26,724 bases of DNA, taken from a virus. Positions 9,440-26,724 of this stretch are shown one piece after another. The notes under the pieces were generated by a model, which saw only the letters and a program-made list of their open reading frames with translations, searched no databases and was not told the origin of the DNA. The DNA lies in the IMG/VR virus record IMGVR_UViG_3300044941_000432, positions 1 through 26,724 of that record, one strand, 5' to 3'. The translations under genes and the position numbers were made by a program. Within the stretch, counting starts at the first letter, position 1. The number at the start of each line of letters is the position of its first letter.

Positions 9440-12253
9440 TCACTTGCTCTGACTCAAGTTGGACAGGAACTCCTCCCACTGGGGCACCACGGCGTCCGGG
9501 TGCCAGGCCCCCGACGCAGACTTGGCCGCAGCACCCGCAGCTTCGGACTTCGCCGCGTCGTCCCAGAGCGCCTCCACCGCCGAGACCCACGGGACGACTT
9601 CCTCGACCGAGGGGGGAGTACGACCCTCGGGGGTAATGTGGAGCGGAATCGACAGGCATGTTCCACCCGCGCCGACCACTTCCGGCAGCGCACCACGATC
9701 ACTCGCGACCACCGGGATGCCGTTGAACATCGCTTCCGCCGCCACCCGACCGAACGACTCGCGCCACAACGACGGTATCACGACGAGCCGCGTCTGCCGG
9801 TAGAACCCCCGCGGGTCCGGCGTGTTGGCCATCCGATGAAGAGACGTGACATTCCGCAAGTCCACACCGCATCGTGCCAGCCAGTCTGCTCGGCCTCGCC
9901 CCTCGACGACCAAGAGCGGAATGTCGGGGCGACTCCGGCCGATGACCTCGGTCATCCGCGCGAACCAGAAGACCCCCTTCTCGGGGACCGGGTTGACGAA
10001 CGTCACGAACTGACCACCGTCCGGGCGCTCGCACGCCACGCGGGTCACGTCAATCACTGGCGGTAGCGCGACACATTCGATCCCGAGCGCCTTGCGGTGG
10101 TACTCGCGGCTGAACTGCGAAGGTACGATCACTGCGTCGCAGCCGGCGAACGCGGCCGCGTCCGGGTACGCGAAGTTGTGCAGCCAGAACGCCACCTTCG
10201 CCCCGGCCTTCTTCGCCACTTGCACGACGCTGCGGCTGGCCGGGTCGCCGCCGTAGGTCAACACGACATCCGGGCGGAACCGCCGCACTGCCTCGGCGAG
10301 GACCGTCAGGAACCCGGCGGTTTCTTCCGGCGAGGGGAGCTTGGCGGGAACGGGCGGGTCCGGGGCGAACACGGTGACCGGGAAGCCGCCCGGCCCCGGG
10401 ACCGTGTGAACGGCAAACTGGCTCGACCCGGCCGCGCCGGGGGCGCTCGTCACTCCGGGCCGGTCGCGGAGCGTAACGCCGATCGGCGTGGCGGCCGGGT
10501 CGTCGAGGAATGGCCCGGTGAACGCCCCACACCGCCAGCCACGGCTGGCGAGTGCGGCGAACAGATCGCGGGTGCAGACCGCCGCCCCGCTCGCCGGGTC
10601 GTGGTAACAGTGGTACGACGCGAACATCACCCGTGGGCGTGACTCCGCGGGGCGCGGCCCAACGCCCGACCCCACGGGTATGGTTCCTGATCGGATCGAA
10701 GTTGTGGGAGAGGAGGGAACGATCCGGAGGGTGACGGGTTCGGCCACCGCTATTGGATAACCATCGGGGGGCGGCGGCTGGCTGCGGGCCAAGCTGTCGG
10801 AGCGAATGTGATACCGTCCACTCCGATGTGCGACGAACGCGAACACCGCCCCCGCCCGCGCGAACCGCCGCCACATCTCCGCGTCCTCGCTCCTCCCGCG
10901 GTAGCGCCCCAGGCTCTCGTCGAACCCGCCAACTCGGTCGATCAGCGCCCGCCGGTGGGCGACGCCGAGCGGAACGGCGAGGGTGTCCGCGACCAGCGCT
11001 CCGAGGTGGGCCTCCGGGTCGTAGGTCGTCACCCGGTCGCCGCAACCCGGCCGCTCGTCGACGAGGTCGTAGCGGAACACCAGGACGTCCCCGCGGCCCC
11101 GGCCGTCCCACACCCGGGCGAGGTGGTCGGGGTAGAACTCGTCGTCGCAATCGAGGTACGCGACCCACCCCCCGGTTGCCGCGGCCAGGGCGGTGTTGCG
11201 CGCGGCCGACAGGCCCCGGTTGGCCGGGTGGCGGAACACCCGGATGCGAGGGTCGGCCGCGGCCGCCGCGTCGAGGAGGGCGGCCGAGTCGTCGGTCGAG
11301 CCGTCATCGATGGCGAGCAACTCCCAGGCGGAAAATGTCTGGGCCAGGACGGACTGGATGGCCCGGCGCACGAACCGGCCGCCGTTGTACACGGGCATGA
11401 CGACCGAAATCGCCGGCCGGGGTGAGGTCGGGTCGATCAGCAACGCCGCCCCACCCGGGGCCGTGTCGGCCTCGGGCGGACTCCGGCCGCCGCTTGCCGT
11501 CGACAGCCCCCCCGATGTCACTACGACCACCCTGGGGTGACCCGGCGGGGACTCCCGCCACCCGCACCCCAGGTCGCGCAGCCAGCACTCGTAGACGGCC
11601 CGGTTCTTGTGGTAACGGTTCGGCAGGAGGGTCGTCTTCCGACCACACAGGAGGGCCGAGATGGCGAAGTGCAACCGGTCGGTGACGACGTGGGCGTGGC
11701 GGGCGGCCAGGCGGAGGTACTCGTCGGGTGTCCGACACACCCGGGCGGGGTCGCCGCGGGACGTCGATTCGGGGAACAGGGCCTCGGCGTCGGCCCGCAG
11801 CCAGACGCCCTCGCCCAGGTCCGGCTCCCCAGGCGTGGGGACATCCAGTCCCAACGCCAGATCGGGGGCCAGTTCGGCATCGGGCCGGAGTCGCCAACTC
11901 GCCCGCTCGCGCACGAACACGCGGGCGTAGGGCAGATCCTCGGGGCCGGTAAACGATTGAGGGAGGACGACCACCGGCCGTCTCCAGGCCAATACCCGCT
12001 CACGAATCGCACAGGCCTGGTGGTAGAAACTCCCCATGTTGCCGCCGGCCGCGATCACCACCGTGTCGGCGTCACCCGGCCCGTCGTTCGGATCGAGGAG
12101 GCGGACGGGGACGGCGAACGCCCGCATCAATTCGAACGCGGCGGCCTCGAGCAGGGCGTCTCCTACGTTCCCCGGCATTCGGACGTAACCGACTGTCCGG
12201 TCCCGGAGCGGTGCGAACACGTGTCGGTATGCGGAAATCGGTAGGAGTCTCAT
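9440..12253 (-). CDS. Three-domain sugar-transfer protein: pyruvyl transferase-like + GT2 + GT4
   Basis: The product is 937 residues from ATG 12253 (MRLLPISAYRHVF); upstream in-frame TTG/ATG starts at 12313 and 12307 lack a ribosome site. Domain 1 (about 10-225) is polysaccharide pyruvyl transferase-like, with GNVGDALLEAAAFELMR at the N-terminus, VIAAGGNMGSFY in the middle and TDRLHFAISALLCG at 191-204. Domain 2 (about 281-490) is a GT2 (GT-A) glycosyltransferase with SVVMPVYNGGRFVRRAIQSV, IDDGSTDDS (315-323), a DCDDEF metal site near 368-373 and a GGFDESLGRYRGRSEDAEMW acceptor block. Domain 3 (about 541-937) is a GT4 (GT-B) glycosyltransferase with WLHNFAYPD, IVPSQFSREYH, VNPVPEKGVFWF and the ESFGRVAAEAMFNGIPVVAS donor-binding signature. 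Each domain alone is a normal-sized enzyme, so this fuses three steps of surface-glycan building. It lacks membrane segments and is probably cytoplasmic. It lies 156 bp after the preceding glycosyltransferase gene and is plausibly in the same functional block. Confidence 0.88.
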   Translation of the reverse strand: MRLLPISAYRHVFAPLRDRTVGYVRMPGNVGDALLEAAAFELMRAFAVPVRLLDPNDGPGDADTVVIAAGGNMGSFYHQACAIRERVLAWRRPVVVLPQSFTGPEDLPYARVFVRERASWRLRPDAELAPDLALGLDVPTPGEPDLGEGVWLRADAEALFPESTSRGDPARVCRTPDEYLRLAARHAHVVTDRLHFAISALLCGRKTTLLPNRYHKNRAVYECWLRDLGCGWRESPPGHPRVVVVTSGGLSTASGGRSPPEADTAPGGAALLIDPTSPRPAISVVMPVYNGGRFVRRAIQSVLAQTFSAWELLAIDDGSTDDSAALLDAAAAADPRIRVFRHPANRGLSAARNTALAAATGGWVAYLDCDDEFYPDHLARVWDGRGRGDVLVFRYDLVDERPGCGDRVTTYDPEAHLGALVADTLAVPLGVAHRRALIDRVGGFDESLGRYRGRSEDAEMWRRFARAGAVFAFVAHRSGRYHIRSDSLARSQPPPPDGYPIAVAEPVTLRIVPSSPTTSIRSGTIPVGSGVGPRPAESRPRVMFASYHCYHDPASGAAVCTRDLFAALASRGWRCGAFTGPFLDDPAATPIGVTLRDRPGVTSAPGAAGSSQFAVHTVPGPGGFPVTVFAPDPPVPAKLPSPEETAGFLTVLAEAVRRFRPDVVLTYGGDPASRSVVQVAKKAGAKVAFWLHNFAYPDAAAFAGCDAVIVPSQFSREYHRKALGIECVALPPVIDVTRVACERPDGGQFVTFVNPVPEKGVFWFARMTEVIGRSRPDIPLLVVEGRGRADWLARCGVDLRNVTSLHRMANTPDPRGFYRQTRLVVIPSLWRESFGRVAAEAMFNGIPVVASDRGALPEVVGAGGTCLSIPLHITPEGRTPPSVEEVVPWVSAVEALWDDAAKSEAAGAAAKSASGAWHPDAVVPQWEEFLSNLSQSK

Positions 12254-12409
12254 TTCATGGTTCGCCTGTGCGAGTGGGCCACGCCCTCCTTGCCGGGAGA
12301 GTGGCATGCGCAACGTCAGGTTTGGCCCGTGAAGAGCAGCTTACGCACCGGCCGAGCGGTCGTCACGGGCCGTCCTGCCGCCGGCCCGGTGATCGGTGCG
12401 CCTCGGTGG

Positions 12410-14065
12410 TCACGCAGGAAAGCCCCGACCGTCACACGTCCGAACGTCGTGGAGCGTGGCGAGGACGAGGTCCGCGACGGTCTCGGTGGCGAACCGTTCC
12501 GCCGCACAGCTCCGAACGGTGCTGCGAGGCATCGCACTCGCGCGGACGACGGCGTCCGAGTACACCCCCAGTGCCGCCGCGTCCGCGTCGTTCTTCACGC
12601 ACTTTGTGCCCGGTGGTAGCCGATCCACGAAGACGCCGGTAACTCCGTCCCGGATGAACGGTGCCCCGGTGCGGACACCGACGGTCGGACAGCCGGCGAG
12701 CAGGATCTCCTGGAGCGCGAGCGGGCCGTGGTCGTCGTCGGCCAGGTAGGCGCAGGCCCGCGAGCGGCGGGCGGCCTCGAACAACTGGTCCCGCCTGTAT
12801 TGGCCGTAGTGCAGTACGACGTGCCGGGGGAAGACCTCGCACAGGTGTTCGAGCAGGCCGGGGCGGTGGCCGTTCTTGGAGTAGATGAGCAGGTCGTACT
12901 CGTCGGGCAGTGGTTCGCCCGGCCACGGGTCGATGGGGTACGGCCAGGTGACGATGGGCGCGGTGTTCGCCGGGCCGCGGTTCTTGGCGATCAGATCGCG
13001 GTACCAGTCGCTGTGGCAGAACATGGCCCGGCAGTTCGCGGCGTCGAGCAGGCCGCGTTCCTCGGCGTCGATGCGCGGCTTCCACGAGTAGGTGAAGAGC
13101 ATGTTCGGGCCCTGTACGAACGGCCGGCCCTCCGAGTCCCACCAGACGGCGTAGCGGCGGTCGTCCCAGTGCCAGAACCAGGGCAGCGCCCCGTCGCTCG
13201 CGGGCAGCGACTTGATCGACAGCCAGTCCAACCCCTCCTTGATCCGCTTGCGGAGTTCCTTCTGCAGGGCGTACATGCCGTTGGTCGGGCCGTCGCGGCC
13301 GGGGGCGTGGACCGGGCCGATCAACTCGACCGGCATCAGGCCGTCGCGGTGCGTGACGTGCGGGGCGGCGGTGAACCGCTTGACCACCGGCAGCGTGGTG
13401 AAGTCGCGCGGCCAGCCGGGCTGGACTTTGTGCTTGCCCTTGGTGGTCTTCTTGCCGAGGTCGCGGTAGCCGGCGTCGTCGAGATAGCTCAGGTGGTAGC
13501 TGCCGGTGTCCACCCGGTAGTGGTAGAACGGCCGGGCGAACTCGCACGGGTCGCAAACGCTCACCTTCGCTTCGTTCAGCCGCCGGGCCAGGTCCTGGTC
13601 TTCGCCGTTGTTGAGGGCCGCGTACCCGCGCACCGCGTCGAACGCAGAGCGGCGAAAAGCCCAGCCGCCGTGGTACAGGCCGCCCGTGTCGTGCTCCTTC
13701 AGCCCGTCGCCGTGGGCGAGCAATACCAGCGATGGGCGGGACCAGTCGGCTTTCTTCAACGCCTCGGCTTGCGTCGAGAACCAGTGCGGCAGGTAGACGT
13801 CGTCGTCGTCCGCGACCAGGAACCCCTCGGCGTCCGGCGAGGCCAGCGCGGCGCAGGCGTTCCGCTTCTCGCCGAGCGAGCGGAAGCGGGCCGGCACCGA
13901 GATCAGCCGCCAGCCCTCGCCGGCCTGGTTGTCGTACTGGCCGGCGTCGTCGAGGATGACCAACTCCCGCAGGTGCCGTGGGTAGTCCTGGCGGAGGAAC
14001 GACTCGATCAGCTGGCCGAGCAGGTGCGGCCGGTGGAACGTGCAGCAGAGGGCGGCGAGCTTCAT
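12410..14065 (-). CDS. Two-domain glycosyltransferase (GT2 N-terminal, GT4-like C-terminal)
   Basis: The product is 551 residues. Residues 1-230 form a GT2 domain: AALCCTFHRPHLLGQLIESFLRQDY, VILDDAGQ (36-43), the DXD-type VADDDDVYLPHWF (85-97) and the GEDQDLARRL acceptor/base block (154-163). Residues of about 245-545 resemble a GT-B glycosyltransferase: DYLL-type strand YDLLIYSKNGHRPGLLEHL, HYGQYRRDQLFEAARRSRACAY, then DDHGPLALQEILLAGCPTVGV, where the GT4 'E-x7-E' equivalent is partly kept. The start ATG overlaps the upstream stop as ATGA (14062-14065), implying translational coupling with the pyruvyl transferase-like gene. The enzyme is predicted cytoplasmic. Substrates cannot be named from sequence. 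The order GT4, pyruvyl transferase, GT2-GT4 directly after a Ser-rich phage protein suggests this set acts on a common acceptor. Confidence 0.85.
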   Translation of the reverse strand: MKLAALCCTFHRPHLLGQLIESFLRQDYPRHLRELVILDDAGQYDNQAGEGWRLISVPARFRSLGEKRNACAALASPDAEGFLVADDDDVYLPHWFSTQAEALKKADWSRPSLVLLAHGDGLKEHDTGGLYHGGWAFRRSAFDAVRGYAALNNGEDQDLARRLNEAKVSVCDPCEFARPFYHYRVDTGSYHLSYLDDAGYRDLGKKTTKGKHKVQPGWPRDFTTLPVVKRFTAAPHVTHRDGLMPVELIGPVHAPGRDGPTNGMYALQKELRKRIKEGLDWLSIKSLPASDGALPWFWHWDDRRYAVWWDSEGRPFVQGPNMLFTYSWKPRIDAEERGLLDAANCRAMFCHSDWYRDLIAKNRGPANTAPIVTWPYPIDPWPGEPLPDEYDLLIYSKNGHRPGLLEHLCEVFPRHVVLHYGQYRRDQLFEAARRSRACAYLADDDHGPLALQEILLAGCPTVGVRTGAPFIRDGVTGVFVDRLPPGTKCVKNDADAAALGVYSDAVVRASAMPRSTVRSCAAERFATETVADLVLATLHDVRTCDGRGFPA

Positions 14066-17798: not shown

Positions 17799-18581
17799 TC
17801 ACACCCCGATGCCCAACAGGGCGAAGTTGCCGTACTCGTAGACCCGTTCGACGTAGGCCGCGACCGGCTGCTTGATCAGCGTCTCCTCGTCCTCGGCGTC
17901 GGCGTACCGCACCCACAGGTACTCCCACCCCTTCTTCTCGATGCCGGTGATGTCGCCGACCGTGAGGTCCGTGGCGTTCGGGCTGGCGGCGAACTTGAAG
18001 GCGATCTCCCAGTCCTCGGTGCCGCGCTGCGAGCCGGACGCGCCGAGGAACAGCACCTCGCCGCGGGCGAACCCCTTGAACGGGGCGTGGTTCACCCGCC
18101 CGGTCAGGTAGAAGAGGGTGGTCTTGTACGCCCCGGTCAGCAGCGCGACGGGGACGTAGTGCGTCTCGGTGAAGTTGAAGACCGGGATGGTGATGTCGGT
18201 GCCTTCGACCGAGTCGGTCGAGACGCCGATGGCCCCCTGGAAGTCGGGCGGGTCGTCGCCGTAGCTGCCCACCGTCTCCAGGCTCTGCGTGATCTTCTGG
18301 TTCCCGCCGCCCGTGTCGAAGCTGTAACTGCTGGCCCCGGCTTCTTTCGGCTCGAGCTTGCCGTAGCGGGCGGTGACCTCCCAGACGCCGCCGCCCTGGT
18401 GGGCGATGTGGTAGTTCTGGAAGACCAGGTTGCCGTAGGCGAGCGGCAGGGTGGCCTGCACCAACGCCCGCACCTCGGCGTCCAGTTCGGTGCCCAGCAC
18501 CATGAACTGCAAGTCCACCGACGGGCTGTCGATCCCGACGGTGGCTTCGCGGCTGTCGAACTTCTCGATGATGATCGCCAT
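17799..18581 (-). CDS. Phage tail-associated protein of unknown role
   Basis: The 260-residue protein begins MAIIIEKFDSREATVGIDSPSVDLQFMVLGTELDAEVRALVQATLP. It is rich in predicted beta strands with few helices and has no signal peptide. It contains the segment YSFDTGGGNQKITQSLETVGSYGDDPPDFQGAIGV and an aromatic stretch near the C-terminus (GWEYLWVRYADAEDEETLIKQPVAAYVERVYEYGNF). I recognise no named domain. It lies between the tape measure gene (7-bp gap) and the Ser-rich protein (1-bp gap), where siphovirus-like phages place distal tail or baseplate hub proteins, so a distal tail/baseplate role is inferred from position. It is the kind of gene repeatedly found beside Ser-rich proteins in planctomycete prophages, but that is recollection, not a search. 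Confidence 0.7.
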   Translation of the reverse strand: MAIIIEKFDSREATVGIDSPSVDLQFMVLGTELDAEVRALVQATLPLAYGNLVFQNYHIAHQGGGVWEVTARYGKLEPKEAGASSYSFDTGGGNQKITQSLETVGSYGDDPPDFQGAIGVSTDSVEGTDITIPVFNFTETHYVPVALLTGAYKTTLFYLTGRVNHAPFKGFARGEVLFLGASGSQRGTEDWEIAFKFAASPNATDLTVGDITGIEKKGWEYLWVRYADAEDEETLIKQPVAAYVERVYEYGNFALLGIGV

Positions 18582-18588
18582 GGGTGCC

Positions 18589-20568
18589 TCACGCGAAGAC
18601 GAGGCCGCCGTGCTGGGCCTCCTGTACGAGTTTCTTGGTGTTCGCCGCCGTCTGCTCGGCCGCCTTGGCGGTGCGTTCGCTCAGGGACTCCGCGCCCAGC
18701 CCGCGGACGGCCAGCGCGCTGAAGGTGCCCTGGATGTCCACCTTCTCGCGGGCCGTGTCGGCCACCTCGTCGAGTTCGGGAAAGTCGGGCCGCTTCATGC
18801 GGTCGGGCGAGCGTGCTGCGTCGGCCTCCTCGCGCTTCCGCTTGGCCTCGGCGAGGGCGTCCTCCCACTCCTTGCGGGCGTCGGCGATGTCGGCCTCGCT
18901 CGCCGCGAGCGTCTCCTGCTTGCGCTTCTGCCGCTCGGCCCGCTCGGCCTCCTGCATGCGGTTGAGCTCGTCCTCGACCCCGGCGCGTTCGCCCTCGATG
19001 GCCGCCCGGCGGCGTTGCCGTTCCGTCTCGCGCTCGTTGACGGCGGCGTCGCGGCGGGCGTTGATGGCGTTGTCCTCGGCGGCGATCTCGTCGTTGATGC
19101 GGGCGATCTCCTCACCCGCGTCCTTGCCGGTGAACACGCTCTTGACCCGGGCCCACACCTTTTTGAAGAAGCCGCTGAACCGGTTCCACCCCTTCTGCAG
19201 CACGCCGATGAAGTTCGTCCAGGCGGTACCGAGGAAGCTGACCGTCTCGACCCAGGCGACCTGGATGCCGGCCCAGGCGTCGTTGAGGAACCGGGCCAGG
19301 CCGTAGACCGCGCGGTAGAAGGTGTCGATGAAGAAGTTCTTGAAGTCGATCCACTTCTCCTCCAGCCAGAGCACCCCCTTCTGGAACTCCATCTTGAGCG
19401 TCAGCCAGAGGATGCGGGCGGCGAGGCCGATGTCGCCGGCGGCCAGCGCGTCCGAGATCCCCTGCCACGCTGCGAGGGCGGTTTCCTTGAGGCCGTTGAA
19501 CTGCTCGCCGAGCCACGACAACGCTTGGCTGCCGGCGTCGGAGGTGTAGATCATGTAGCCGGCCAGCGCGACCACGGCGGCGGTGACCAGGCCGATCGGA
19601 CTCAAGATCGCCGCGACGACGGCGGCCAGGATCTTGAACACGGCCACCACGCCCATGATCAGCGACACCAGTCCGCCGATCGCCGCTCCGACGAACGAGA
19701 TGGCCCCGCCGGCCGCGATCAGGGCCACGCCCACTCCAACCACGGCGGCGATGACCTTGGCCACGGTGACGATGACCGCCTTGTTCTCCTTGACCCAGTT
19801 CACCACCCCGACCACGAACCGCGTGATGGTGCCCAACAGCGCGGTGAGGTCGGGGGCGAGTGCCCCGCCGATGGCGAAGGCGGCGGCCTTGAGGGTCTTG
19901 ATGAGCCGGTTCCAGGCGTCCTGCAGGTCGGCGGCCGACTGGGCCTGGTCGGTGCCCACCGTCAGCCCGAGCCGATTGGCCTCGGCCCGCAACTCGTCGA
20001 TCCCCTTGGCCCCGGCGGAGAGCAGCGGGATGAGCTTCTGGCCGCTCTTGCCGAAGACGTCCATCGCCAGGGCGGCCCGCTGCGTCGGGTTGCCGACCTG
20101 GGCGATGCGGTCGGCCAGGAGGCGGAACTGCTCGTCGGGCGTCAACGCCTTCAGGTCGGCGACGGTCAGGCCGAGCTTGGCGAGGGTGGCCCGCATCTCG
20201 CGGGAGCCGCTGGCCGCCGAGACAAGGTTCCGCTGCATCGCCTTCAGGCCCGCTTCGAGCGTCTCCAGGTCGGCCCCGGACTGCTCGGCGGCGAAGCCGA
20301 GCTCGGACAACGCCTCGGTCGAGACGCCGGTGCGGGCGGCCATCTTGTTGAGCGCGTCGCCGGCGTCCTTGAAGTGAAACACCATGCCGGCGACCGGGGC
20401 CAGGGCCGCCCCGCCCAGTGCCACGAGCCGCGCCCCCAGCCCGGCCACGCTCGCGCCGAACGCCTTGAGCTTCTTGGCGGCCGCGTCGAGGCCCTTGACG
20501 AGCCGGCTGTCCTTGACGGCCAACTCGACATACGCGGCACCGGCACGGATTCCCTTGGCGTCGGCCAT
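18589..20568 (-). CDS. Phage tail tape measure protein
   Basis: The 659-residue protein sets tail length and serves as a scaffold for tail tube assembly. Visible features include the typical N-terminal region with LVKGLDAAAKKLKAFGASVAGLGARLVALG, then the tape measure signature FKDAGDALNKMAARTGVSTEALSELGFAAEQSGADLETLEAGLKAMQRNL (about 66-115). A 'NPTQRAALAMDVFGKSGQKLIPLLSAG' block follows (about 160-186). Hydrophobic membrane-spanning-like segments cover about 263-342. Amphipathic aromatic helices follow (about 370-480), then a long charged coiled coil (about 490-600). At 659 residues it predicts a fairly short tail if the roughly 1.5 angstrom per residue rule holds. The start ATG lies 7 bp after the chaperone frame ends. 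Confidence 0.92.
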   Translation of the reverse strand: MADAKGIRAGAAYVELAVKDSRLVKGLDAAAKKLKAFGASVAGLGARLVALGGAALAPVAGMVFHFKDAGDALNKMAARTGVSTEALSELGFAAEQSGADLETLEAGLKAMQRNLVSAASGSREMRATLAKLGLTVADLKALTPDEQFRLLADRIAQVGNPTQRAALAMDVFGKSGQKLIPLLSAGAKGIDELRAEANRLGLTVGTDQAQSAADLQDAWNRLIKTLKAAAFAIGGALAPDLTALLGTITRFVVGVVNWVKENKAVIVTVAKVIAAVVGVGVALIAAGGAISFVGAAIGGLVSLIMGVVAVFKILAAVVAAILSPIGLVTAAVVALAGYMIYTSDAGSQALSWLGEQFNGLKETALAAWQGISDALAAGDIGLAARILWLTLKMEFQKGVLWLEEKWIDFKNFFIDTFYRAVYGLARFLNDAWAGIQVAWVETVSFLGTAWTNFIGVLQKGWNRFSGFFKKVWARVKSVFTGKDAGEEIARINDEIAAEDNAINARRDAAVNERETERQRRRAAIEGERAGVEDELNRMQEAERAERQKRKQETLAASEADIADARKEWEDALAEAKRKREEADAARSPDRMKRPDFPELDEVADTAREKVDIQGTFSALAVRGLGAESLSERTAKAAEQTAANTKKLVQEAQHGGLVFA

Positions 20569-20575
20569 CGCTGAC

Positions 20576-20881
20576 TCAATCTCCCGGTGGACGGTTGACG
20601 AACACCTGCTTCAACACGCCGATGCCGACCTTGACCCGTGGGGCGTCCTTCCGCCGGCAGTGCGGGTCGAAGTCGGCCGGGGTGAACGGGCGGGTCTTCT
20701 TCGGGTCGCGGTGGCAGTTGGCGATGACGGCCATCACGGCGGAGGTGTGCGCCCACCGCTGGCGGCTGACCGCCTCGGCCATGATCACGAGCTCGGCGAG
20801 GGTGAAGGGCCCTGGGTCAAGGCCGACGACCCCGGCGAGCTCCCAAACGAGGCGATCAATCTGTTCGCTTCCGCCTCCGGG
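20576..20881 (-). CDS. Tail assembly chaperone, second frame (likely reached by -1 frameshift)
   Basis: This frame encodes GGGSEQIDRLVWELAGVVGLDPGPFTLAELVIMAEAV, then ANCHRDPKKTRPFTPADFDPH and a Lys/Arg-rich end. The 'DP.PFTL.EL..MAE' and 'NCHRDPK' patterns are those of the small protein found between chaperone and tape measure genes in related prophages. It has no ATG, GTG or TTG before the conserved part; the first is a GTG inside ELVIM. It lies in the -1 frame of the preceding gene and overlaps its end. By analogy with gpG/gpGT of lambda, the product is probably an extension of the first chaperone by programmed -1 frameshifting. The left-strand boundary given (20881) is the latest plausible shift point. 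Confidence 0.65.
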   Translation of the reverse strand, partial: PGGGSEQIDRLVWELAGVVGLDPGPFTLAELVIMAEAVSRQRWAHTSAVMAVIANCHRDPKKTRPFTPADFDPHCRRKDAPRVKVGIGVLKQVFVNRPPGD

Positions 20882-21282
20882 TCGAGTTGGTCGAGGACCG
20901 TCTCCGCGTGATCCAGCAGCCGCGCCTTGACCTTCTTCCCGGCCGCGCTCAGCTTCCGCATGCCCGCCCGCGCCCGGGCGTCGGGGAAAAAATCGAATAG
21001 TTCCTCCACGAACGCTTCGGCCGCCAGTGTGATGGCGTCGCCGTACAGCGCGCGGCCGAAGTCCTCGTCGCTGACGTGGCGGGCGTCGGCCTCGTCCTTG
21101 CACAGGCAGTAGAGCACGTCGGCCAGTTGCACCGGGTCGGCCACCAGTTCGCTCAGCGGCTGGAAGCCGTCGTCGATGAGCTTGTACAGGTCGAGCTTCA
21201 TCAGGCCGCGGACCCGCTTCACGGCGGCCACGTTGATGGCCACCGTCCAGGTCCGCCCGGCGTTGTCCTGAAAGCTGTGCAT
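20785..21282 (-). CDS. Tail assembly chaperone, first frame (gpG-like)
   Basis: The 165-residue protein starts MHSFQDNAGRTWTVAINVAAVKRVRGLMKLDLYKLIDDGFQPLSELVADPVQLADVLYCLC, with GAGG six bases upstream of the ATG. This resembles small tail assembly chaperones that coat the tape measure protein before tube polymerisation. It sits between the tail genes and the tape measure gene, the expected place. The end of the frame (FGSSPGSSALTQGPSPSPSS) looks like out-of-frame sequence of the overlapping downstream gene. This supports the idea that translation normally leaves the frame before there in a fraction of ribosomes. Charged helices (AAGKKVKARLLDHAETVLDQLDPEAEA) precede the overlap. Confidence 0.75.
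   Translation of the reverse strand: MHSFQDNAGRTWTVAINVAAVKRVRGLMKLDLYKLIDDGFQPLSELVADPVQLADVLYCLCKDEADARHVSDEDFGRALYGDAITLAAEAFVEELFDFFPDARARAGMRKLSAAGKKVKARLLDHAETVLDQLDPEAEANRLIASFGSSPGSSALTQGPSPSPSS
20986..20992 (-). promoter_or_regulatory. Candidate -1 slippery heptamer T TTT TTC in the chaperone gene
   Basis: In the first chaperone frame the codons GAT TTT TTC CCC form T TTT TTC, a canonical X XXY YYZ slippery site, with T TTC CCC overlapping it. The -1 frame is open from here to 20576. A shift here would add an Arg-rich stretch, so a shift closer to the overlap, for example at C CCG (20878-20881, giving DP then GGGSEQIDRL), is also possible. Confidence 0.4.
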
Positions 21283-21290
21283 GGTGAACC

Positions 21291-22340
21291 TCACTTCGCG
21301 GAAGGGCCGGCGGTGCGGATCGGGATCGGGTGCGGCGTCCACTCGCCGGTGCCAGCCTCCTCGCGTTTGCCGTCCTTGCAGATCGGGATGGGGACCGGCA
21401 CCCAGGCCTCGTCGGCGTCGTCGGCCGCCCTGGGCCGGGTGCGGCGGGCGACTTCGGCCGAGCAGCCCCACATCGACACCTTGCGGGCCATGCCGCTGGT
21501 GCAGCAGACGACCGACACCAGTTCGTTGGTGTCGCTGCGGAAGATGCCGCCGCCGGAGTCGCCGGACGACACGCTCAGGATCATCCGCAGTTGCCCCTGG
21601 CCGTTCTCCCGCTCGGCGACGGTGCCGTCCTCCCGGTTGCCCGGCTTGTCCACGCCGAAGCCCATGTGCCAGACCGGGGTATCGACCGCCGGGTTGCTCT
21701 CGGCGATCAGGGCGTAGGGGAGATCCTTGACCTCGTCGTCGGTGACGCACCAGGCCACGTCGGGCGTCTTGTGGAACGCCACGACGCGGATGCCGAACGA
21801 GCGGCTGTCCTTGAGGGTGAGCGTGCCGCGTGCCCCGACGCCCGAGACGCAGTGGGCGGCGGTGAGCACGTCCCAGCGGCCGTCGGGCCGCCGCGGGCCG
21901 ATCACGGTGGCCGTGCAGCCGGCGGTGCCGAAGCGGATGCGGCCCAGGGCGTTCACCGGGTCGAGCTTGCCGTCCCCCGGCGGCTTGGGGTCGGGTTTGG
22001 GCGGCACCGGAGGCACTGGCGTGCAGGACTCGATGGTGACGCTGATCCGCGCTTCCTCGACCGACAACGCCCCGTCGGCGTTAGTGATGACGAGCAGTTC
22101 GACCTCGTAGGTGCCGGGGTGGGCGGCGAACTCCAGGACGCCGCGCGGGCTGGTGGCCCGCAGCACGTCCTTCGACGGGTAGACCCGCCACAGGAGCGCG
22201 GCCTTGGCATCCACCCCTTCGGCCTTGAGCCGGACGAGCGAATGCGGCTTGTACTTCGTTTCGCCGCCGATGCGGATCGTGTCGGCGTTCGCGGCCAACG
22301 GCACCAGGGCAAGCAAGGCAATGGCAAACACAGAACGCAT
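21291..22340 (-). CDS. Secreted trypsin-like serine protease
   Basis: The 349-residue protein starts at ATG 22340, six bases after GAGGAG. The signal peptide MRSVFAIALLALVPLAANA has a likely cleavage site after ANA. Residues of about 20-115 look like an Ig-like beta domain (HSLVRLKAEGVDAKAALLWRVYP), then a Pro-rich hinge (PVPPVPPKPDPKPP). The trypsin/S1 domain has all three catalytic elements: WDVLTAAHC (His), TPDVAWCVTD (Asp) and SVSSGDSGGGIF (Ser with oxyanion GDSGG). The C-terminal tail (PVPIPICKDG ... PHPIPIRTAG) has no domain. It should be exported by Sec and act outside the cytoplasm. It is embedded in the tail operon, 20 bp after the tail tube gene and 8 bp before the chaperone. A Sec-exported enzyme is odd there, because tail parts assemble in the cytoplasm; it may be a morphogenetic, lytic or moron gene. 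Confidence 0.88.
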   Translation of the reverse strand: MRSVFAIALLALVPLAANADTIRIGGETKYKPHSLVRLKAEGVDAKAALLWRVYPSKDVLRATSPRGVLEFAAHPGTYEVELLVITNADGALSVEEARISVTIESCTPVPPVPPKPDPKPPGDGKLDPVNALGRIRFGTAGCTATVIGPRRPDGRWDVLTAAHCVSGVGARGTLTLKDSRSFGIRVVAFHKTPDVAWCVTDDEVKDLPYALIAESNPAVDTPVWHMGFGVDKPGNREDGTVAERENGQGQLRMILSVSSGDSGGGIFRSDTNELVSVVCCTSGMARKVSMWGCSAEVARRTRPRAADDADEAWVPVPIPICKDGKREEAGTGEWTPHPIPIRTAGPSAK

Positions 22341-22360
22341 GAGAACTCCTCGGGTGTGGA

Positions 22361-22801
22361 TCAGGGGGCGACGACCCAGCTGGGCGGGGTGACGGAGAAG
22401 GTCGGCTTGACGGTGACGCTGACGGTGATGGCCTCCTCGAGCGACTCGTTGCGGCTGAAGTTGGTGACCATGCAGGTGGCCCGCAGCCCCTGCGAGCCGG
22501 GCACGTTCATCGGCCCGTCCATGACGGCGAACTCCATCGCCCCGCGGTTCAGGAACGTGTCGCGGATGGCGGCGAAGTCGTCGTCGGCCGTGTCCCAGAC
22601 CATCTCGAACTCGATCGACCCGTCCTTGAGCGTGGCCACGGTCGCCCGCCAGCCGGCGTTGCCGCGGGTGGTCACGTCGGCTTCGCCGGCCTCGAGGTTC
22701 AAGGTCACGTCCTTGACGTTCTGGATCTCGTTCCAGGCGGGCGAGGCGAAGGTGCCGGTGTTGCGGTACAGTTTGGCGTCGAGCCCGAGTTTCACGGCCA
22801 T
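22361..22801 (-). CDS. Phage tail tube protein
   Basis: The 146-residue protein (MAVKLGLDAKLYRNTGTFASPAWNEIQNVKDVTLNLEAGEADVTTRG) follows the pattern of siphovirus major tail/tube proteins: an N-terminal 'G.da.ly' strand, 'WNEIQNVKDVTLNLEAGEADVTTRG' and KDGSIEFEMVWDTADDDFAAIRDTFLN. Then comes a beta C-terminus (GLRATCMVTNFSRNESLEEAITVSVTVKPT). Hexamers would stack into the tail tube. The ATG is preceded by GAGAGGAG. Its position between the tail completion genes and the tape measure block fits. No sheath gene is visible, so a non-contractile tail is favoured. Confidence 0.82.
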   Translation of the reverse strand: MAVKLGLDAKLYRNTGTFASPAWNEIQNVKDVTLNLEAGEADVTTRGNAGWRATVATLKDGSIEFEMVWDTADDDFAAIRDTFLNRGAMEFAVMDGPMNVPGSQGLRATCMVTNFSRNESLEEAITVSVTVKPTFSVTPPSWVVAP

Positions 22802-22813
22802 CGGTGTCTCCTC

Positions 22814-23245
22814 TCAGCGGACGGAGTTCTTCCACAGGGGCGGCAGTTGGGCCTGCTCGGCCTCGAAGGCCGGCCCCATGAACGGCCGGGGGCGGTAGCG
22901 GAGCCGGCGCGTCTTCGCCTGGGTGCGGCGGACCGCCTCGCCGCCGTGTTCGAGCAGGCGGGGGGCTTGCGACTCCGCGCGGATCAGCGTCGGCCCGATG
23001 ACCACGCTCTTGCGCTGCGGGTCGTAGGCGAACAGGATGAACTTGCGCAGCAGGCCGACGTGCGAGTGCGGCGGCGATCCGGGCGGGCTGGTCCCCTTCT
23101 TCTTGCGGATGGACGTCCTGGCCCGCGTTCGCACGAACGCGCCGAACCGCGACAGCACCCGCCGCGTGCCGGCATCGACCGCGTTCTTCACCTTCGCCCG
23201 GTCGAAGAACCCCTGCTTGGCGGCCTGGAAGGTCATCGTGATCAT
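22814..23245 (-). CDS. HK97 gp10-like / tail completion protein
   Basis: The 143-residue basic protein (MITMTFQAAKQGFFDRAKVKNAVDAGTRRVLSRFGAFVRTRARTSIRKKKGTSPPGSPPHSH) shows the 'A...G.fvr..aR.siR....sspG.PPh.h' pattern common to gp10-like and virion morphogenesis proteins. These sit at the head-tail junction or complete the tail. 'FMGPAFEAEQAQLPPLWKNSVR' at the end matches the usual 'rPfm.pA...' terminus. It starts 3 bp after the preceding stop, in tight operon order. Confidence 0.75.
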   Translation of the reverse strand: MITMTFQAAKQGFFDRAKVKNAVDAGTRRVLSRFGAFVRTRARTSIRKKKGTSPPGSPPHSHVGLLRKFILFAYDPQRKSVVIGPTLIRAESQAPRLLEHGGEAVRRTQAKTRRLRYRPRPFMGPAFEAEQAQLPPLWKNSVR

Positions 23246-23248
23246 GGT

Positions 23249-23677
23249 TCACCTCCACACGCGGTAGGTCAGCGTGAGGACGCTGGTGAACTGGCGAAAC
23301 TCCTCCAGGTGCTCCATCGCGTAGACCGGCTCGTTGGCCACCTCGGTGCAGCGGGCCTGCGGGAAGCCGGCCAGCGGGTGCGCGCGGAGGTGGTCGGCGA
23401 TCTCCTCCACCAGTTCCATGAGCGCATCGAGGTTCTCCACGCTCGGCTCGACCTTGCGTTGCACCGCCACGTCGATGCGGTAGTCGAAGCTGTCCCGGTT
23501 GCGGTCCAGTGCCTTGCTGGCGACGGAACGCGGCACGACGCTGACCCGCAGTTCGGTCATCTCCGAGAGCTCGAAGCACGGCTGGTAGTGCCGCACGGCG
23601 ACGAGCGGCTGGCTGAACGCGGTGGCGTTCAGCTGCTCGACGACGGCGTCGGCCAGGGCCAGGATCGTCGCGGGCAC
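23249..23677 (-). CDS. Tail terminator-like phage protein
   Basis: The 142-residue protein starts at GTG 23677, which shares one base with the preceding TAG (TAGTG). It begins MPATILALADAVVEQLNATAFSQPLVAVRHYQPCFELSEMTELRVSVVPRS, and a strand-rich middle (FDYRIDVAVQRKV) is followed by a helix (NLDALMELVEEIADHLRA) and 'FTSVLTLTYRVWR' at the end. This alpha/beta layout and gene position resemble lambda gpU/tail terminator proteins that cap the tail tube. Assignment is by layout and context rather than by a diagnostic motif. Confidence 0.65.
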   Translation of the reverse strand: MPATILALADAVVEQLNATAFSQPLVAVRHYQPCFELSEMTELRVSVVPRSVASKALDRNRDSFDYRIDVAVQRKVEPSVENLDALMELVEEIADHLRAHPLAGFPQARCTEVANEPVYAMEHLEEFRQFTSVLTLTYRVWR

Positions 23678-24057
23678 TATTCGACCCCCACTTGCTTGGC
23701 GTGAATCCGCAACACCTTGCGGAACACGTCCGACCACCGCCACGCGGGCTCCTTGCCCGGGGCCATCACCTCGTACACGAACACCTTCCCGCCCTGCGTC
23801 TCGCGGATCCGGTCGCCCCGCTCGGGCAGGACCGCGACCGCGTTCAGCACCAGGTCGGCGGCGTGGATCAGGAAGTCGCGGTCGGTCCACTCCATCCGCA
23901 CGCCGCCGTAGCCGTCGTCGAGCTTCAGGAGCGTCCGCCCGATGGTCGCCTGCACCGCCACCTCGTCCACCCCGCGGCGGTAGACGACCGGCCGCGAGGC
24001 GTGTTCCTTGAGCATCTCGGCGAGCCAGTCGGAGCCGGCGCGGAGCAGGTCGGGCAT
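23677..24057 (-). CDS. Head-tail joining protein
   Basis: The 126-residue protein (MPDLLRAGSDWLAEMLKEHASRPVVYRRGVDEVAVQATIGRTLLKLDD) resembles the small head-tail joining (gpFII-type) proteins. It shows 'V.YRRG.D.V.V.ATIG.T', then 'RDFLIHAADLVL' and 'ERGDRIRE..GGKVFVYEVMAPGKEPAWRWSDVFRKVLRIHAKQVG'. These proteins bridge portal/connector and tail. ATG 24057 lies 7 bp after the stop of the decoration gene. The open frame continues upstream to 24147, but that is another frame of the neighbouring gene. Confidence 0.75.
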   Translation of the reverse strand: MPDLLRAGSDWLAEMLKEHASRPVVYRRGVDEVAVQATIGRTLLKLDDGYGGVRMEWTDRDFLIHAADLVLNAVAVLPERGDRIRETQGGKVFVYEVMAPGKEPAWRWSDVFRKVLRIHAKQVGVE

Positions 24058-24064
24058 GGCGTCC

Positions 24065-24397
24065 TCACTGGCTGAGCCGGACGCGGACGTGCGGGCTGCC
24101 CGGCCGAGAGTCGACCAGTACCGTCTTGCCCAGCAGCTTGTTGCCACTGGCCGTCTCGGTGGCGACCTTGGCGGTGTTGTCCCAGTAGGCCAGGTCGCCC
24201 ACCGCCCAGCCCGTCAGCGACGCGACCGGGAAGTCGAACACGCCGACGACGGCGAGTGCCCCGAGCTTGCCGGCCTTGATGTCGAGCTTGGCCACGCCGA
24301 CCAGTTCGCCCTGCACGACCACGTCCCCGGCCGCCACGTCGGCCACCGGGATGTGGTCGATGCTGCCGCCGTCGTGGATGAAGATCACCTGCGCCAT
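24065..24397 (-). CDS. Capsid decoration protein (DUF2190-like)
   Basis: The 110-residue protein (MAQVIFIHDGGSIDHIPVADVAAGDVVVQGELVGVAKLDIKAGKLGALAVVGVFDFP) shows the DUF2190 pattern: an 'G..I...p.adv.aGdvV..g.l.GVa..di.aG..g.la..GvfdfP' beta core followed by 'G.L.YWD....kvt...sgn.liG' and an 'RVRLS' end. DUF2190 proteins decorate or cement the outside of the capsid. It normally follows the major capsid gene directly; here an HNH endonuclease gene is wedged between them. Its first 13 bases overlap the end of that endonuclease gene. Confidence 0.8.
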   Translation of the reverse strand: MAQVIFIHDGGSIDHIPVADVAAGDVVVQGELVGVAKLDIKAGKLGALAVVGVFDFPVASLTGWAVGDLAYWDNTAKVATETASGNKLLGKTVLVDSRPGSPHVRVRLSQ

Positions 24398-24942
24398 GTC
24401 TGCCTCCGGTGGTTCAAGATCACTGCGTGCCGTTTCCCGTTCTGGATCAGGCTGACGGCCGCCCGACTCACGCCAAACCTGCGGGCGACGACAGCCTGTG
24501 GGACCACCCCACGCAGGCTGACGATTTCCCGCACCTGCAAGTCAGTCAGCCGCCTGCCCACCGGCTCCCGAAGCCGCGTCCGATAGGCGTGACGGTGGTT
24601 GTCCCCGCGACTGAGGTATTCCAAGTTGTGCAAGGCGTTGTCGTGCTTGTTCCCGTTCTTGTGGTTCACGTCGCGACCGTGGGCTGCTCCCAGGAAAGCG
24701 GCCGCGACCAGTCGATGAACGCTTCTCGCGACGTACCGGCCCATGACGCGAAGGCTGACCACCAGGTAGCCGGTCTTCGAGTGCGCGGTCGGCCGCAGTA
24801 CTTTCCACTCGCCAGACTTGCGGCTCCGGATACGTCCCTGATCGCTCGCCTGGTAATCCGGGAAGTCCAGAAGGTCTGCCCAGCGCTCCTCGGAAGAAAA
24901 ACACGAAGCTGGCTGGGGGCAGGCTGGTTCCAGTTCGCTCAT
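24385..24942 (-). CDS. NUMOD4-HNH homing-type endonuclease with C-terminal helix-turn-helix
   Basis: The 185-residue protein starts at ATG 24942, overlapping the capsid stop as ATGA. The NUMOD4-like region (EERWADLLDFPDYQASDQGRIRS, about 19-41) precedes an HNH nuclease: VHRLVAAAFLG, then DVNHKNGNKHDNALHNLEYLSRGDNHRHAYR. This gives the H-N...N-N...N pattern of free-standing homing endonucleases in phages. The C-terminus (LTDLQVREIVSLRGVVPQAVVARRFGVSRAAVSLIQNGK) is a resolvase/NUMOD-type DNA-binding helix-turn-helix. It is inserted between capsid and decoration genes without breaking either, a typical free-standing homing site. Composition is slightly more AT-rich than its neighbours. Confidence 0.88.
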   Translation of the reverse strand: MSELEPACPQPASCFSSEERWADLLDFPDYQASDQGRIRSRKSGEWKVLRPTAHSKTGYLVVSLRVMGRYVARSVHRLVAAAFLGAAHGRDVNHKNGNKHDNALHNLEYLSRGDNHRHAYRTRLREPVGRRLTDLQVREIVSLRGVVPQAVVARRFGVSRAAVSLIQNGKRHAVILNHRRQTWRR

Positions 24943-26724
24943 GCTTCCCCTTTCGCTTTCACTCCGCCACGAGGGTCTTGCAACGCGCAACCGAAGTCGT
25001 GGTAGCCGCGCATCTGGACGCCCAGGACGTGGAAGTCGGCCTCGGCCGTCTCGATCGTCGGGGCCTCCTGGCCGTTCAGGAACGCCACCTCGATCACCGG
25101 CAAATCCGTCGGTTCGGCCAACAGGTACCACGCCTTCGCCGAGAAGCCGGGGTACTTGGCGTTGCCCAAGTAGCGGCTCACCTCGACGCGGAACTTGCCC
25201 TGGTGCGGGTTGGTGATCGGGTACTTGGCCGTCGAGGCGTTGTCGCGCAACTCCAGCGACTTGAACAACTGCGAGCCGATCGCCGAGAGCGCCGTCGGCA
25301 CCAACAGGATCGCCGGCATGACGCCGATCGGCTTGCCGTCGCCGTCCACCTGGTCGAGGAAGGCCACCTCGCCGGCGGTCAGCCCATCGATCCCCAGGGC
25401 GGTCGTCGCCCCGGAGATGAAGTTGGCGTTGCCGGCGGTGAAGAAGGCGGCGTTGTTCAGGAACGTCGTCCAGAACACGTCGTTGATCTTCAGGCCCGAC
25501 CCGCGGCCGAGCTTCTGCGGCACGGTGGTGATCGCGCCGAGGTCGTCGTTGATCACGTCGCGGCGGTCGATGGACAGCATCAGGCCGTAGGTGTCAGCCC
25601 GGTTCGAGTACGTCTCGTTGCCGAGCGTGCCGTGCTTGATCTCGCCGCCGGGTGCGACCAGTTCATACTGGTCCTTGCCGATGAGCCGGTAACTGGTCAC
25701 CGTCTTGAAGTCCGACACGTTCCGCACGGCGCAGACGTTCCGCCAGGTGCGTTCGACCGAGAAGAAGCCGTCGAGCAGGAACTTGTTGGCGACGTTCGAC
25801 AGGATGCCGCCGATGTCCACCGTCGAGAACGCCGCCTCGATGCCCCGGCCGAAGGCGTACCGCAGGACGGTGCGGTGGTCGCGGAAGTTCCGCCCGGTGT
25901 AGCCGTTGGCCCACGCCGCTTCGAGCAGCAGTTCTTGCAGGCCGATGCCGCCGCGGAACCGCCGGGCTGCCGCGTCGAGCGTTGGCTCCGGGTAGAGGCG
26001 TTCGACGCCGTCGAGCTTGGCGGTCAACAGGCAGGCCGCCTCCAGGACCGCGCCGCTGACGCCGCCGTCACCCGAGCCGATCCCCGGCGAGCGCGGACGG
26101 GTCGATCGCAGCACCTCCAGCTCGGTCCGCATGGCGTCCCAGCCGTCGCGGATGGCCTGGCTCTCGATCTCGGGAAACCGCCCGCCGCAGACCCGCCGCA
26201 CCGCCGTGATGCGGTTGGTCTCGGCGACAGCCTGGGACCGCACCGCCTCGACGGTGAAGGCGTCGCCCTCGTCGTGGTCGTCCTCGCTCGTGACGGTGCC
26301 GTCGGGGTTCCGGGTGGCGGCGACGCTGGCCGAGGTGCGGCCGTCGGCCCCGAGGTCGACGAAGCTGATCTCGCCGAGCGTCGCCTTGCGGACGACGTTG
26401 AGCGGGCCGGTGAAGGTGCGGCCGTTGACCAGCACCTGTTGGTTGTCCTTGACGAACTCGAACTCCTCGACGCCGGCCCCCACGGATGCCTGCCACGGGA
26501 AGCCGTTGCGGGCCGAGGTCACGACCTCGCGGGCCGCCGGCGTGTCGCGGGAGACCAGGCCGGTGGCGACCAGTTGCCCCTCCTCGACCCGCACCGCGTC
26601 GGTGTGGCCGACGCCGGACAGCGGGTCGTGGCCGAAACGGATGGGCCGGGACTGCGACGGGATCGACAGCCCGGCCAGGTCGATGACCACCGGGTGCCGC
26701 CAGCCGGCGACCCGCATCGGCGTG
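24939..26724 (-). CDS. Fused prohead protease and major capsid protein (5' end outside window)
   Basis: The frame is open through the right edge. An ATG exists at 26717, but the fold appears to begin earlier (T-P before it). From 26717 the protein is 592 residues. The first part (about 1-150) is a phage prohead protease: GWRHPVVIDLAGL (His), HTDAVRVEEGQLVATGLVS, FPWQASVGAGVEEFEFV (Ser), VNGRTFTGPLNVVRKATLGEISFVDLGADGRTSA. A charged linker follows (SEDDHDEGDAF), then a helical stretch. The C-terminal half is a gpT-like/HK97-fold capsid protein (about 300-592): FSTVDIGGILSNVANKFLLDGFFSVERTW, IKHGTLGNETYSNRADTYGLMLSIDRRDVINDDLGA, FNNAAFF. It self-cleaves and builds the head in related systems. 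Fusion replaces the usual separate protease, scaffold and capsid genes. Confidence 0.85.
   Translation of the reverse strand, partial: TPMRVAGWRHPVVIDLAGLSIPSQSRPIRFGHDPLSGVGHTDAVRVEEGQLVATGLVSRDTPAAREVVTSARNGFPWQASVGAGVEEFEFVKDNQQVLVNGRTFTGPLNVVRKATLGEISFVDLGADGRTSASVAATRNPDGTVTSEDDHDEGDAFTVEAVRSQAVAETNRITAVRRVCGGRFPEIESQAIRDGWDAMRTELEVLRSTRPRSPGIGSGDGGVSGAVLEAACLLTAKLDGVERLYPEPTLDAAARRFRGGIGLQELLLEAAWANGYTGRNFRDHRTVLRYAFGRGIEAAFSTVDIGGILSNVANKFLLDGFFSVERTWRNVCAVRNVSDFKTVTSYRLIGKDQYELVAPGGEIKHGTLGNETYSNRADTYGLMLSIDRRDVINDDLGAITTVPQKLGRGSGLKINDVFWTTFLNNAAFFTAGNANFISGATTALGIDGLTAGEVAFLDQVDGDGKPIGVMPAILLVPTALSAIGSQLFKSLELRDNASTAKYPITNPHQGKFRVEVSRYLGNAKYPGFSAKAWYLLAEPTDLPVIEVAFLNGQEAPTIETAEADFHVLGVQMRGYHDFGCALQDPRGGVKAKGEA

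Follow-up and report, generated by a model that had tools for sequence, protein, structure and literature searches.

The window analysed here is an entire IMG/VR record of 26,724 bases with coding largely on the minus strand. Its gene order is a head-maturation fusion, head decoration, tail tube, a protease, two small genes, tape measure and then more tail and glycosyltransferase genes. The fusion joins a major head protein to a head-maturation protease (24939..26717, minus; phrog_4523 6e-66, PF25209 7e-44), and the tape-measure gene lies at 18589..20568 (minus; phrog_8462 4e-42). Flanked by the head protein and decoration genes is an ORF (24385-24942, minus) which, by its motif, we take to be HNH-type homing-endonuclease-like; locus L009, a relative, has no gene at this position. 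Large glycosyltransferase and pyruvyl-transferase proteins are encoded downstream of the tail genes (9440-14065, minus), and glycosyltransferases are found at the corresponding place in relatives too. A transposase gene (1934-2797; phrog_4716 6e-25) sits near the left end on the opposite, plus strand.

The gene under study encodes a predicted exported S1 protease of 349 amino acids (21291..22340, minus; ATG at 22340, stop ending at 21291). The first-pass annotation had placed it between tail tube and chaperone genes with spacings of 20 and 8 bp. Both spacings hold: the stop of the upstream gene ends at 22361, leaving a 20-bp gap to the protease ATG, and the next gene begins at 21282, after a gap of 8 bp. 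The upstream gene (22361..22801, minus) is indeed a tail tube (PF06199 9e-8, phrog_1407 2e-12), whereas the downstream one (20785..21282, minus), which has no PHROG or Pfam match, is called tail assembly chaperone by its position in a conserved gene order only. A ribosome-binding site, GAGGAG, precedes the protease gene (22346..22351, minus), and comparable sites are present upstream of homologues. A frame open from 23579 to 21291 prompted us to consider a frameshift fusion to the tail tube, which was rejected because phase and gap vary: among relatives the tube-to-protease phase counts are 41/8/5 and the gaps 8-107 bp, with no fixed reading-frame relation. Scans unsuited to this phylum found no sigma-70-like promoter in 18500-26724 (0.2 expected, a weak test) and no terminator-like sites above chance (3 found, 3.8 expected).

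Residues 1-20 (22281..22340; this and the following parts all on the minus strand) form a putative signal peptide, recognised from the sequence and by a crude signal test, with cleavage probably after an AxA-like end near residue 19-20. They are followed by a beta-sandwich domain (residues 21-104, 22029..22280), delimited by AlphaFold strands, alignment conservation and dN/dS, a proline-rich linker (residues 105-125, 21966..22028; low pLDDT at 107-122), a trypsin-fold domain (residues 126-305, 21426..21965; Pfam, HtrA/Deg fold with Z about 19) and a C-terminal tail of low pLDDT (residues 306-349, 21294..21425), in which the alignment reveals two copies of W-x-P-x-x-I-P-[IL]. The earlier claim of a complete S1 protease with His, Asp and GDSGG Ser was borne out. 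PF13365 (Trypsin_2) matches residues 142-275 with E 5e-11 and 43.9 bits versus a cut-off of 27.6, PF00089 scores exactly at its cut-off of 20.6, and His163, Asp194 and the GDSGG Ser262 (codons 21854-21852, 21761-21759 and 21557-21555) are without variation across 30 aligned homologues, as are Cys142, Cys164, Cys279 and Cys280. Activity as an S1 peptidase is predicted from these intact catalytic residues. Of the Ig-like domain that had also been claimed, a modelled beta-sandwich stands (seven strands in residues 23-103 at pLDDT about 80, in an AlphaFold model of pLDDT 76 overall); the label itself is a fold impression, since no Pfam family match names the domain. The window protease has no PHROG match, and its Pfam matches are Trypsin_2 and Trypsin only, with no peptidoglycan-hydrolase domain found.

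In its modelled structure the protein comes closest to the HtrA/Deg group (DegQ, DegS, DegP, HtrA1/2), with which it shares the trypsin fold, the triad and a periplasmic location, the last being predicted for the window protein. Structure matches of the window model in the PDB include DegQ (E 1.5e-7) and DegP (Z 19.2, rmsd 3.0, 174 residues), and identity is 12-20% in the listed HtrA/Deg matches. It differs from this group in that Pfam finds no PDZ domain, residues 309-349 being a short low-pLDDT tail, and in that an Ig-like domain and a proline linker stand in front, in a phage late operon. The best viral structure match, the unnamed BFVD protein A0A2H4KIR0 (E 5e-20, 343 columns, 24% identity), has 467 amino acids and is alike in domain make-up only, because the rmsd over both domains is poor (21). 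Divergent relatives (L141, L145) match phrog_9683, a 'protease', weakly (E about 0.001). What we regard as new is the cargo slot, the exchange for other enzymes and the companion gene, all described below, and not the protease fold itself.

A Sec signal peptide had been claimed as well, and our home-made, crude test (not SignalP) agrees: it was positive in 29 of 30 homologues, compared to 6% of shuffles and 0 of 22 tail-tube proteins, and the signal peptide is retained among homologues despite varying letters. Export bears directly on a role as cytoplasmic head or tail maturation protease, which would suit a gene located among head and tail genes and, in L142, L136 and L202, following the head protein. 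Given the signal peptide, the head-maturation protease already fused to the phage's head protein and a slot that is empty in 43 of 121 relatives, we regard such a role as very improbable.

Among 26 close homologues, compared in 325 pairs of which most have a finite dS, median dN/dS is low in the Ig domain (0.22) and the protease domain (0.25) and higher in the signal peptide (0.46) and the tail (0.61), which indicates that the protease gene is under purifying selection. Frame-broken or truncated copies occur in L013, L014, L053, L062 (MAG KatS3mg108) and L072; they fit a dispensable gene or a sequencing error. These broken copies and the many relatives without the gene are what a chance or decaying insertion without function would leave behind, but a dN/dS of about 0.25, an invariant triad and the presence in several unrelated phage contexts make this hardly credible. 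Conservation, selection and synteny rule out a chance ORF, an artefact or a chance insertion.

Scoring of the junction between tail tube and chaperone excluded repeated contigs, partial tube genes and cut-off slots and comprised 121 loci. This protease occupies 62 of them, 43 stand empty, an exported papain-like cysteine peptidase takes up 11 and other content 5 (an earlier count that included repeats gave 62, 41 and 9); these shares are not natural frequencies, because the set pools loci retrieved with two queries, the protease and the tail tube. The order tube, protease, chaperone, tape measure is kept in most protease loci. Judged from these gene orders, the junction is a cargo slot. L009 and L074, with a near-identical tail tube, differ by exactly one gene and its ribosome site, and this empty-site comparison shows that the unit of gain or loss is the gene plus its ribosome site. 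A tail-tube tree with 97 distinct rows, one of them the window, needs at least 10 changes of the protease label where shuffles need 33, and only 2 changes are forced by well-supported branches.

Such a variably filled slot and a gene separable from the tail genes accord with the cargo gene that the first-pass annotation had suggested. It had also held that absence from related elements together with an own promoter would mark a chance insertion. That combination was not observed: about half of the slots hold the protease, others are empty, and the promoter scan, a weak test, found none. Cargo genes in the structural operons of phages are known as morons. Like them, the protease gene is a single gene that brings its own ribosome site, lies between conserved tail genes and comes and goes among near relatives. 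It differs in that no own promoter was found by that weak test and in that it is often tied to a companion elsewhere in the operon. It is almost certainly conserved cargo encoding an exported protease, as far as sequence comparison can tell.

Replacement of the protease was counted in loci selected by their tail tube, which avoids choice by protease (REPLACEMENTS). From 224 tail-tube matches 80 loci were kept, 39 of which hold both head and tape-measure genes. This protease is encoded by 16 of the 39 (L095 has it far downstream), a different exported peptidase by 12 and none by 11, so an exported peptidase is not indispensable or lies elsewhere. The 12 are made up of 5 with the cysteine peptidase, 6 with a different Trypsin_2 family and 1 with a trypsin-thioredoxin fusion. 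None of the 28 peptidase-bearing loci has two kinds, and no locus examined combines this protease with the cysteine peptidase. Cys, His and Asn of the latter are invariant in 18 sequences, and a model (pLDDT 66, Foldseek E 0.012) hints at a papain-like fold; the enzyme is found at a second junction too, between head and tail genes. In all 5 aligned cases the gene after the 187-aa cysteine peptidase encodes an exported protein whose CxxC is invariant, 4 of these 5 proteins having a C-terminal membrane helix by a crude test. In the tail operon of L116 (3247-4644) a single chain comprises signal peptide, Trypsin_2, Thioredoxin_2 and a membrane helix. That unrelated exported enzymes replace the protease in close relatives suggests that the cutting of envelope proteins matters to these viruses.

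Swaps of peptidase class, the export signal and a slot with gain and loss would likewise be expected of superinfection exclusion or receptor shaving, by which surface proteins of the dying or lysogenic cell are removed or altered so as to block adsorption of rival or sister phages; the first-pass annotation had likewise raised receptor processing and exclusion of rivals. This reading is unlikely in our estimation: a late structural operon with no detectable own promoter speaks for late rather than lysogenic expression, and the thioredoxin-like partners go unexplained.

The pair of an exported cysteine peptidase and an exported CxxC protein can be seen at L105:6949-8845 and also in L104, L108, L109 and L096. 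A PPWQP-like motif, reminiscent of the W-x-P motifs in the C-terminal tail of the protease, is conserved in L105-type loci.

Relatives of the protease are encoded by 57 distinct IMG/VR loci in a protein search and by 63 in a second scan by alignment, many identical to the first set. Fifteen loci come from bacterial genomes, 12 of them with titles that name Planctomycetota; the other 3 belong to Fimbriimonadales, Bacteroidales and Acidobacteria metagenome bins, and 2 of these (L060, L065) carry the same phage tail genes and may be mis-binned. Within the family of G002, 12 of 95 genomes match at E <= 1e-30, with 14 matches in total and 3 in one genome. Examined with about 1.5 kb on each side, 6 of the 14 loci have tail-tube neighbours, 4 a Gemmata phage cassette, 1 a single cassette gene and 3 no recognised neighbour. 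A tblastn search with the protease matched none of 50,697 phage records and none of 72,556 plasmids; the phage records likewise gave no match to the tail tube, to the 187-aa cysteine peptidase or to two divergent homologues. A literature search over titles and abstract openings yielded no paper reporting the protease gene or its slot, and the portions available of the few papers found on planctomycete phages do not mention the gene.

A small companion gene accompanies the protease in many loci, for example L004:8476-8658. It encodes 58-67 residues with neither signal peptide nor membrane helix by our crude tests. A set of 70 loci that have head, gp10-like and tape-measure genes shows it in 27 of 41 protease-positive and 1 of 29 protease-negative loci (Fisher p 5e-8, related loci not being independent); the lone exception, L093, is akin to L095, whose protease sits about 9 kb further on. 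A search based on the companion gave 53 loci. The protease is present in 43 of them, counting those that show its Ig domain before the contig or frame runs out; 7 are cut off within 2.5 kb, and 3 have no visible protease (L093, L186 and L194), L186 stopping just short of the protease that its contig carries. In L049, L142 and L136, phage types unlike that of the window, the companion overlaps the protease start, and in L200-L202 a small membrane protein and an Ig-less protease come after it, in that order. The window and 14 of the 41 well-covered protease loci are without a recognisable companion, and hence it would be helpful rather than essential. Nothing in Pfam matches it with an E of 1 or below, the best PDB sequence matches are at E 1.3 (two designed proteins), and PHROGs gives nothing better than E 0.21 (a holin match of one companion). 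Whatever its function, companion and protease form a new, testable two-gene module.

These data also weigh on a moron-like role in host benefit or competition, with a secreted protease that feeds or defends the lysogen. The relative G004 encodes a serine integrase and a LexA-like repressor, which point to a temperate phage, and the carriage of the protease by 12 of 95 genomes of one family, one with three copies, fits such a role. Placement in a late operon does not, and neither does the link to the companion and to other exported peptidases instead of varied cargo, as seen in 43 of the 53 companion-selected loci with protease and 7 more that end within 2.5 kb. A benefit to the host is thus rather unlikely.

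The same protease is present in other phage types at other places of the late operon. In Gemmata proviruses, L049 and L144 it comes after tail or fibre genes at the late-operon end, a usual place of lysis genes, and in L142, L136 and L202 after the head protein. Four copies of the Gemmata type share the order protease, 84-aa protein, 74-aa membrane protein and 68-aa protein. Some high-GC loci were read from ORF lists and ribosome sites because our home-made gene caller chose the wrong strand there. In several relatives small membrane proteins adjoin the protease or are fused to it; L141:6302-7447 has extra N-terminal membrane helices in frame, as if a small membrane protein had been fused. A holin identity was considered for this two-helix N-terminus and dropped for lack of family support.

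The varied placement argues against a virion-borne protease that rides the tail and opens a surface protein layer of the host at entry, with the Ig-like domain as anchor. The protease does adjoin the tail tube in the group of the window, and Ig-like domains on phage tail proteins are well known. Other phages, however, place it after head genes or fibres, the frameshift link to the tube is missing with gap and phase varying, and a signal peptide would remove the protein from the assembly compartment. We consider a part in entry distinctly unlikely.

An export signal and a late operon are also common to exported endolysins and lysis cassettes, as are, in some relatives, small membrane proteins nearby and the place at the operon end. 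The window protease differs from them by a catalytic domain of the protein-cutting S1 fold and by the absence of an identified holin: no holin was recognised by family beside the window gene or its relatives, matches of small membrane proteins being at E 0.15 or worse, and unlike several relatives the window has no small membrane protein beside its protease gene. Eight peptidoglycan-hydrolase families, with positive controls, gave 0 of 20 each in related phage records, which are often fragments; for a ninth, PF05838, no control matched.

To our knowledge, little is known of how planctomycete phages enter or leave across such unusual envelopes. Late placement and export indicate the envelope at the end of infection, and the protease probably acts in the envelope of the host. 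Our overall explanation, to which we give somewhat less than even odds, is a conserved late cargo of temperate Planctomycetota tailed phages that is exported and cuts envelope proteins, with exit as the leading reading. Translation would start at the ribosome site that the protease gene has for itself on the tail-operon messenger; the product would be exported by Sec and released or held in the periplasm, where the mature enzyme would be an S1 protease with an HtrA/Deg-like fold and no PDZ domains. Its N-terminal beta-sandwich probably places it on a surface or substrate, and host-envelope proteins are probably cut in the late phase of infection, in which the tail operon would be expressed. 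The cutting may then aid phage exit, alone or with small partners, where others use a peptidoglycan hydrolase.

Disulfide links may be a feature of the planctomycete protein wall. A bolder proposal, which we hold to be doubtful, is that Planctomycetota phages exit via an exported protein-cutting module instead of a peptidoglycan endolysin and dismantle a protein-rich, perhaps disulfide-linked envelope; its core would be a protease of S1 or papain-like type, which an exported thioredoxin-like reductase, small membrane proteins and a dedicated companion of 60 residues may or may not accompany. An older view assigns planctomycetes an SDS-resistant protein wall (as excerpted from PMC3422733), but they possess peptidoglycan that lysozyme opens (as excerpted from PMC4432640), and the protease alone may therefore not suffice for exit. 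For this reason a role in exit is held tentatively, and exclusion, entry and host benefit are kept beside it. The recurring, swapped exported protease and the thioredoxin-like partners in some relatives are concrete genes that can be tested in culturable hosts, e.g. Gemmata, and they would help to explain how the planctomycete envelope is held together.

Two further cases deserve mention. The genome G033, of about 10 Mb, carries three Gemmata-type phage cassettes with the protease (L220, L224 and L225). In L056 the same module of signal peptide and Ig domain is joined to a different C-terminal domain (10551-11264), and a second, truncated Ig-module gene lies alongside (9971-10198).
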